Shown in pieces: positions 50,745-51,685 of a stretch of 64,000 nucleotides of DNA. A program made the position numbers and the translations under genes. Numbering within the stretch: position 1 is the first letter of the stretch; each line of letters opens with the position of its first letter. A model generated the notes under the pieces. The model searched no databases. It was not told the origin of the DNA and saw nothing but the letters and a program-made list of their open reading frames with translations. The stretch comes from Balneola sp. (GTDB lineage Bacteria > Bacteroidota > Rhodothermia > Balneolales > Balneolaceae): the NCBI GenBank assembly GCA_003712055.1, contig RHLJ01000003.1, forward strand, positions 372,001 to 436,000, given 5' to 3'.

Positions 50745-50747
50745 ATT

Positions 50748-50964
50748 GCATAAAAAAACCCTCATCGCCGAGACGTGAGGGTTTTTGTTTTCTTGCGAAA
50801 ACACCTGAAGTACCTTTGTTTGATTTCTCGATTTGAGAAGGTTCGAACAAATAGGCCGCTGGTTTTGTCGGCCTTACATCAATTTCACCGTAGTGTCCTT
50901 AATGCCAGTGCTCACATATAATTACTACAATTCATGAGCGTAGAACAAGAAAAAAAAGCACTAC
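50748..50964 (-). ncRNA. Candidate structured RNA, copy 1 of a tandem duplicated element
   Basis: With the adjacent box array this forms a 262-base unit that is repeated, roughly three quarters identical by eye, at 51293-51555. Four hairpins are visible in plus-strand coordinates: CCCTCA/TGAGGG (50759-50781), GTTTTC/GAAAAC (50787-50802), TTCTC/GAGAA (50825-50839) and AGGCCG/CGGCCT (50853-50874). Read on the minus strand, the first is followed by seven T, the form of an intrinsic terminator. A 24-base block (50877-50900) is identical in both copies. The minus strand is chosen because only that terminator tail is kept in both copies. No protein frame is conserved between copies. Confidence 0.5.
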
Positions 50965-51007
50965 TTTCCCACAACTTTTCAACCCGTTTTCCACGGAATT
51001 ATCCACA
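50965..51007. other. Array of four DnaA-box-like 9-mers, copy 1
   Basis: TTTCCCACA (50965), TTTTCAACC (50976), TTTTCCACG (50987) and TTATCCACA (50999) are spaced 11, 11 and 12 bases. The last is the perfect E. coli DnaA consensus TTATNCACA; the others are related but weaker. An AT-rich stretch follows to about 51110. This could be an origin or DnaA-binding site, or the array may simply be part of the promoter of the minus-strand RNA. Confidence 0.5.
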
Positions 51008-51172
51008 AACTGACTTTTTAAAAAATCATTAGTTATTGTTTTTTAATGGCTAATGAGAATTATTATAGTTCCGTATTTAGGGTCTTTTTGAATAGTCTAA
51101 AAATTCACCTGTGCGCGAATGGGATTTTTCTTTGATCCAATTCCAATTAGAAAATAGAGTTAATCTTTGCAG

Positions 51173-51226
51173 ATCCTGAAACAAGCCCGGCTTCCGAAGT
51201 ATTCATACGGAAGACGGGTTCAGGAT
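51173..51226. repeat. Long intergenic palindrome
   Basis: ATCCTGAA/TTCAGGAT, CCCG/CGGG and CTTCCG/CGGAAG nest into one long hairpin. Its flank ends GGATGAC, shared with palindromes at 11733, 11804, 57035 and 59179. Otherwise the spacer 51010-51292 between the two duplicated elements holds no gene. Confidence 0.7.
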
Positions 51227-51292
51227 GACTATTGAAAGAGAAGAGTGCAGGTGGAGAATTTAGGATACTCAGATTCGCTGCTGAATTTCGAA

Positions 51293-51510
51293 GCATAAAA
51301 AAACCCCCAGCGCCGAAACGTGGGGGTTTAGCTTTCTTACGAAAGCACTTGGAATACCTTTTGTCCAAATTCTCGAGTTGAGAGGTTTCGAACAAACTGG
51401 CCTCAAGATTTTTGTGGCCTCTCATCAATTTCACCGTAGTGTCCTTGGTGTCAGTGTTCATCTAGATGTACAGGATTTATGGAGCGCTTAACAAGAAAAA
51501 AAAGCGTTAC
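51293..51510 (-). ncRNA. Candidate structured RNA, copy 2 of the tandem duplicated element
   Basis: Equivalent hairpins are CCCCCA/TGGGGG (51304-51326), GCTTTC/GAAAGC (51331-51346), TCTC/GAGA (51371-51383) and GGCC/GGCC (51399-51419). In the first two a T-A pair of copy 1 is replaced by C-G on both sides, which is compensatory change. The minus-strand T7 tail is kept (A7 at 51297-51303), while the plus-strand T-tract is lost (only TTTA). The invariant 24-base block is at 51423-51446 and an invariant AACAAGAAAAAAAAGC tract follows. No matching RNA family was recognised from memory. Confidence 0.5.
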
Positions 51511-51553
51511 TTTCCCACAACTTTTCAACTCGTTTTCCACTGACTTATCCACA
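51511..51553. other. Array of four DnaA-box-like 9-mers, copy 2
   Basis: TTTCCCACA (51511), TTTTCAACT (51522), TTTTCCACT (51533) and TTATCCACA (51545), with the same 11-11-12 spacing as copy 1. The remaining 130 bases to the next gene are AT-rich without other features. Confidence 0.5.
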
Positions 51554-51685
51554 AATTCGATATTCCCATTCTAGTTAAATATTGATTTTATTGAATTAAT
51601 GAGAAATAGTACTTAGGCTATTTTAACCTTTTTTCGAAAGAGCTTAAAAATGCCCTGAGAGTGAGGTACATATTTTATTAAAAAA

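Follow-up and report, generated by a model that had tools for sequence, protein, structure and literature searches.

6S RNA (RF00013) is a structured RNA that acts on a protein and occurs in more than one copy in some species. The Listeria RNA Rli55, in which an AdoCbl riboswitch is joined to ANTAR sites, and the SreA and SreB RNAs are riboswitch-controlled RNAs that act in trans. The HMP-PP (thiS) riboswitch is found in tandem with the TPP riboswitch and has its aptamer embedded in a terminator (PMC6478431). In E. coli, dnaA and nrdAB are established targets of regulation by DnaA (PMC8203912); a search of that review by term returned no small or noncoding RNA. We analysed a stretch of 64,000 nucleotides of Balneola sp. 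DNA (contig RHLJ01000003.1, positions 372,001 to 436,000; referred to as the window and numbered from its first letter) that contains a tandem pair of repeats. We conclude that these repeats are Type I members of a previously undescribed family of structured RNAs in the Balneolaceae, with a fold that is demonstrated and a transcription that is inferred.

Like 6S RNA, the Balneolaceae RNA is free-standing, structured and of similar size, but 6S RNA forms a single long hairpin opened by a central bubble, while the Balneolaceae RNA is a junction with a pseudoknot. Identity with 6S RNA was rejected: the single-hairpin criterion is not met and covariation supports the pseudoknotted junction. RF00013 gave no match in 15 Balneolaceae genomes, with a model that also misses a Bacteroides control and is insensitive here. 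The Type I loci share with the E. coli dnaA and nrdAB promoters (PMC8203912) a cluster of DnaA boxes beside the promoter; unlike those promoters, they have a noncoding RNA as their product. A sister group, Type II, carries a recognisable TPP aptamer (RF00059) with a CUGAGA core, a domain that the window copies do not have. In contrast to the TPP riboswitch, this aptamer stands alone, is enclosed by 10-20 bp and usually has no close gene behind it. Type II appears to combine an aptamer with a trans-acting RNA part, as do Rli55 and SreA/SreB, but the aptamer is a different one, the pseudoknot module is new and the 3' TPP domain seems to be folded constitutively. The HMP-PP (thiS) riboswitch lies in tandem with TPP (PMC6478431) just as the Type II module adjoins it. 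That riboswitch differs in structure from the Balneolaceae RNA. It is also cis-acting, unlike the free-standing Balneolaceae RNA, and cmscan found no match to it in the loci scanned.

The two copies lie in direct orientation at 50748-51009 (copy 1, W1) and 51293-51555 (copy 2, W2). They are 80% identical over 262 nt (E=1.8e-59) and a search of the bacterium's own genome found no further good copy. The 24-mer CATCAATTTCACCGTAGTGTCCTT is exact at 50877-50900 and at 51423-51446. Both copies are held in a gene-to-gene gap of 941 bp (50745-51685) with a lipoprotein-like ORF of 404 aa, which has no Pfam match, on one side and a UspA-family gene on the other. A U-A pair in one copy is replaced by C-G in the other (hairpins GUUUUC-GCAA-GAAAAC and GCUUUC-GUAA-GAAAGC), a second compensatory pair sits in the terminator stem, and the minus-strand T7 tail is intact in both copies (A7 at 50752-50758 and 51297-51303 on the plus strand). 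The folding energy of the copy-1 transcript has a z-score of -4.3 relative to shuffles. ORF 51147-51461 on the minus strand has no Pfam match, the corresponding frame in copy 1 is closed, and the criterion for a small protein, a conserved coding frame, is not met.

An earlier note, made from the sequence alone, had claimed two matching units of about 262 bases, an invariant 24-base block, compensated stem pairs, a kept minus-strand T7 tail, a gene-free gap of 941 bases and an unconserved protein frame. All of these claims held, and in the case of the stem pairs more homologues brought more compensatory changes. Its inference of tandem minus-strand RNA genes, perhaps encoding a regulator, is supported, with transcription remaining inferred. 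Two points required correction: the length, given as about 200 bases, becomes a predicted transcript of about 160 nt (50913 to 50752), and the box array, counted as part of the unit, lies upstream of the promoter and outside the RNA. The pseudoknot, the DnaA-type identity of the boxes and the TPP-fused relatives were absent from that note and were added by the follow-up. It had proposed an Rfam scan, a covariance model and R-scape; the first two were carried out and a background-corrected covariation test was used in place of the third.

Table 1. Positions of features of the two RNA copies in the window, with the basis for each assignment.
Feature	Position	Strand	Basis
Copy 1 conserved core: P0, P1 (cUACGg loop), P2, P3, pseudoknot	50792..50915	-	cmsearch 114 bits, E=2e-22 per genome; covariation
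Copy 1 predicted 5' end	~50913	-	first base of P0, ~6 nt past -10
Copy 1 hairpin P1 with UACG tetraloop, includes the invariant 24-base block	50877..50904	-	double changes in 55 sequences
Copy 1 intrinsic terminator, stem CCCTCA/TGAGGG + T7	50752..50781	-	sequence; stable hairpin in fold
Copy 1 putative promoter: -35 TTGTTC (50943-50948), 18-nt spacer, -10 TAATTA (50919-50924)	50919..50948	-	position match to Type I TTGACA-N17/18-TAATTA
Copy 1 T8 tract between boxes and -35	50950..50957	-	kept in many Type I promoters
Copy 1 array of four DnaA-type boxes, starts 11-12 bp apart	50965..51007	+	
Copy 1 boxes TTTCCCACA, TTTTCAACC, TTTTCCACG, TTATCCACA	50965-50973, 50976-50984, 50987-50995, 50999-51007	+	
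Copy 2 conserved core	51336..51461	-	cmsearch 113.7 bits with model R1, 76 with R2
Copy 2 intrinsic terminator, stem CCCCCA/TGGGGG + T7	51297..51326	-	sequence
Copy 2 promoter region (approximate): -35 TTGTTA, -10 degraded (TACATC)	51465..51495	-	comparison with copy 1 and Type I loci
Copy 2 array of DnaA-type boxes	51511..51553	+	sequence
Copy 2 boxes TTTCCCACA, TTTTCAACT, TTTTCCACT, TTATCCACA	51511-51519, 51522-51530, 51533-51541, 51545-51553	+	

Our findings demonstrate, by covariation, that the fold of the RNA is under selection. It has a closing stem, P0 (GAGYACA/UGURCUC), and three hairpins: P1, which is capped by a C(UACG)G loop, P2 and P3. A pseudoknot forms between CCG in the P2 loop and a CGG that adjoins P0 on its 3' side. 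In a first alignment of six sequences, with the structure assigned by inspection, 88.9% of cells were paired and there were 28 double changes, compared with about 10 in shuffles and no more than 4 with slid partners. With 55 sequences 88.7% were paired and 426 cells showed double changes, compared with 133 in shuffles and no more than 82 with slid partners; these changes affected all seven P1 pairs and two of the three P1b pairs. When the 7,021 column pairs of 68 non-redundant sequences were ordered by a background-corrected G statistic, the 18 top ranks all fell in the fold and pseudoknot pairs were placed at ranks 21, 33 and 46, with the variants CCG/CGG, UUG/CAA and CCU/AGG. Copy 2 has a compensated change in its pseudoknot (CUUG/CAAG), and copy 1 has a three-of-four version. 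For alignments A2 and A3, earlier versions of the structure served as the guide, which favours the fold; the initial alignment of six sequences had no such guide. Nearly every conserved position is either paired or part of the tetraloop, and no unpaired sequence is conserved beyond the tetraloop and the A-rich P2 loop.

The family was found only in the Balneolaceae. A covariance model (R1) built from the window copies and four homologues matched 48 of the 92 genomes of that family at E<=1, with many of the matches below E=1e-15. When the model was rebuilt to include the closing stem (R2), it matched, at E<=0.01, 50 of the 129 genomes searched in the order, all 50 being among the 92 Balneolaceae; it found nothing in 37 genomes from other families of the order, nor outside the Balneolaceae among 394 genomes sampled from the phylum. 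The calibration was short and the E-values are rough. Carriers in the Balneolaceae commonly have several copies, and they include nine metagenome-assembled records (eight Balneolaceae and one Bacteroidetes) and Rhodohalobacter sulfatireducens, named records on which the placement of the RNA in this family is based. Because 42 of the 92 family genomes gave no R2 match, the RNA is not a universal housekeeping RNA; some of those genomes are incomplete and strict filters drop weak matches. BLASTN against 59 relatives detected partial copies in two genomes of the same genus (G001 and G002) and, elsewhere, matches through a short conserved stretch. In two other genomes (G019 and G029; loci read on the minus strand) the same RNA lies among other genes. 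Rfam 15 gave no match in the window at gathering score, the best in the region having E=0.19, and none to the module in homologous loci, where it detected TPP in Type II and otherwise only chance matches. A plasmid origin was rejected: at the sensitivity used, copy 1 had no match among plasmids and the box array none among viral contigs. No paper on this RNA or on small RNAs of the Balneolaceae was found in the literature searched, with most subscription journals lying outside its scope.

Loci were divided into Types I and II by sequence and upstream boxes, a few (L052, L064) being intermediate. One locus, L064:2401-3332, carries three RNA copies in a row in less than 1 kb; unrelated hairpins come after them, and DnaA boxes are absent.

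Type I RNAs are linked to arrays of DnaA-type boxes that are spaced 11-12 bp apart, have a single orientation and lie directly upstream of the promoter. Such arrays precede essentially all Type I loci, though they lay outside the covariance model. At least two strict boxes within 130 nt were found at 39 of 80 distinct RNAs and degenerate arrays at four more, and the distance from array to -35 is near-fixed. A scan of about 85,000 species genomes found the exact array in only 10 stretches: nine have the full RNA just downstream and the tenth meets a contig end, the first 40 positions of the RNA matching. Within the window, exact TTATCCACA occurs solely at 50999 and 51545, that is, in the two arrays, and it is also present, with TTTTCCACA, upstream of dnaA in this genome. 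A region upstream of dnaA (G000:C3:222700-223100) has four DnaA boxes, two of them TGTGGATAACT and one a TGTGGAAAACTTGTGGAAAA pair, and is probably the dnaA promoter or oriC. An oriC assignment for the arrays themselves was rejected: they occur at several loci per genome, and here lie about 200 kb from a dnaA gene that has its own upstream boxes. Several DnaA boxes stand near the -35 element, as required of a promoter regulated by DnaA; DnaA control is nevertheless inferred from the box sequence without binding data. Five of the six BLASTN matches in a related family (f3) were set aside as ribonucleotide reductase promoters that share the boxes and not the RNA. At f3 loci L013-L017 a box array and a T tract precede a gene resembling class II ribonucleotide reductase, an identity that Pfam confirmed only at L013 and L014, and this Type I-like layout may point to a DnaA regulon.

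Only a few bases separate the end of the Type I promoter, TTGACA-N17/18-TAATTA, from P0, and a U7 tract directly follows the pseudoknot in most of these loci, so the typical transcript is inferred to consist of just the folded body, about 125 nt long. In the window species an extra hairpin and terminator (CCCTCA...TGAGGG-T7) after the core would extend it to about 160 nt; this terminator hairpin past the core end (50792) was not seen in homologues of other species. A generic sigma-70 scan left the copy 1 promoter unscored, generic promoter and terminator scans being uninformative, and the start and stop points of the RNA are inferred from sequence alone. The degraded -10 element of copy 2 may make its promoter the weaker one, an inference made without expression data, and because that element is degraded and pairs are partly broken copy 2 may be decaying. 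The layout is free-standing. Among the 80 distinct RNAs the next gene was on the opposite strand in 51 of 74 cases and a same-strand ORF started within 300 nt in only 8, counts that were pooled over types with a few loci misassigned in the script's type labels; neighbouring genes vary between species. A cis-regulatory leader was rejected because the next gene is mostly on the opposite strand. The criterion for a free-standing small RNA, its own promoter and terminator and no downstream gene in cis, is met at the sequence level only.

Type II RNAs start with AAGAGCACA or similar and have, in place of DnaA boxes, pairs of CCYTACA-like boxes about 20-25 bp apart; many are preceded by a leader with TTGACATAnTGA. 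Box pairs or leader were noted upstream of the RNA at L066-L072 and L085-L105. Type II neighbours resemble stress genes (Usp-, Hsp20- and P-type ATPase-like), and NAPRTase and flavodoxin neighbours were Pfam-confirmed. Boxes and neighbours together hint at a stress regulon of an unidentified regulator. The link to the TPP aptamer is clear: RF00059, which lay outside the covariance model, follows on the same strand in 26 Type II loci (TPP-bearing loci: L068-L072, L085, L087, L089-L095, L097-L105), several scoring at or above the gathering score of 54.3 and the rest below it, and the CUGAGA core was present in 23 of 23 aptamers checked. The enclosing pairs described above, which lock P1, are predicted by folding in the 23 loci examined and compare with 0-4 bp in seven ordinary TPP riboswitches from genomes of the family. 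A search of 15 genomes also found TPP aptamers that lack the module, several of them preceding a receptor-like gene; a gene on the same strand follows many ordinary TPP copies. Terminator-like hairpins come after the Type II aptamer in several cases, and the nearest following gene usually lies at a distance or is convergent. They do not meet the criterion for cis control, a switchable P1 or expression platform with a thiamin gene downstream. No paper on standalone TPP aptamers was found in the literature searched, again with most subscription journals out of scope.

These observations suggest a free-standing, DnaA-regulated, compact RNA that acts in trans and probably binds a protein, a reading to which we give a probability of about 0.5, its transcription and DnaA binding being inferred and its target hypothetical. 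A sigma-70-type promoter, flanked upstream by the phased DnaA-box array and often a T tract, would fire according to the level or ATP state of DnaA and thus follow replication or growth. Transcription would begin at about the first base of P0, and the RNA would fold into P0-P1-P2-P3 with the pseudoknot between P2 loop and 3' side and end at the T7 tract. It would then act in trans on a protein, which it would bind or sequester much as 6S, Csr-type or ANTAR-sequestering RNAs do. Type II would place the same module under another promoter signal, mostly with a TPP aptamer added. We favour a protein partner over antisense pairing with moderate confidence because there is hardly any conserved unpaired stretch to serve as a seed, and the protein-binding role rests on that absence only. 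DnaA titration could be a separate function of the 43-bp array.

A serious rival is that the module is itself a small-molecule aptamer, an orphan riboswitch fold in a metabolite-sensing trans RNA, with pseudoknot and U tract forming a terminator-embedded aptamer. In its favour are the compact multi-helix junction with a conserved pseudoknot, the U7 tract directly 3' of that pseudoknot in most Type I loci and the position of the Type II module beside a TPP aptamer, as in tandem riboswitches. We nevertheless consider it unlikely, given that most loci lack a closely following gene, the conserved positions are nearly all paired or in the tetraloop and leave no obvious binding pocket, and no Rfam aptamer matches the module. 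An ordinary antisense small RNA, acting under DnaA control on mRNAs such as those of replication or dNTP genes, would fit a short, free-standing, U-tailed RNA with a DnaA-type promoter, and nrdJ promoters of a related family have the same layout of boxes and T tract. This too is improbable: the compact fold leaves scant free sequence, and none of it is conserved unpaired outside the two loops already named.

The locus might instead be primarily a DNA site that titrates DnaA or resembles DARS or datA, with the RNA secondary. Clustered, phased DnaA-type boxes at both copies are in keeping with such a role, but covariation reveals selection on the RNA fold, Type II RNAs do without the boxes and the spacing between array and -35 is near-fixed, so that we regard this explanation as very unlikely. 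A small-protein gene (ORF 51147-51461) or a mobile or intergenic repeat draws support only from the open frame in copy 2. The closed frame in copy 1, the lack of a Pfam match, double changes of the kind expected of RNA, the presence of just two copies in the genome and the absence, at the sensitivity used, of matches in plasmids or viral contigs all but exclude it.

The trans-acting RNA reading can be extended, as a possibility, to a bolder one in which a lineage-specific module ties central signals to a common trans target: DnaA in Type I and, in Type II, a stress-type promoter together with TPP bound by an aptamer that stays folded. TPP would then serve a free-standing RNA, regulatory or even catalytic, as its ligand or cofactor and would not work as a cis switch. 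Type II raises the question of what role a TPP aptamer can play when no gene follows it and it seems unable to switch. A new type of regulatory RNA is likely to be at work here. The findings add a well-supported pseudoknotted RNA family to the Balneolota and, if the boxes work, this would be, as far as we have found, the first noncoding RNA family to be placed systematically under the control of the replication initiator.
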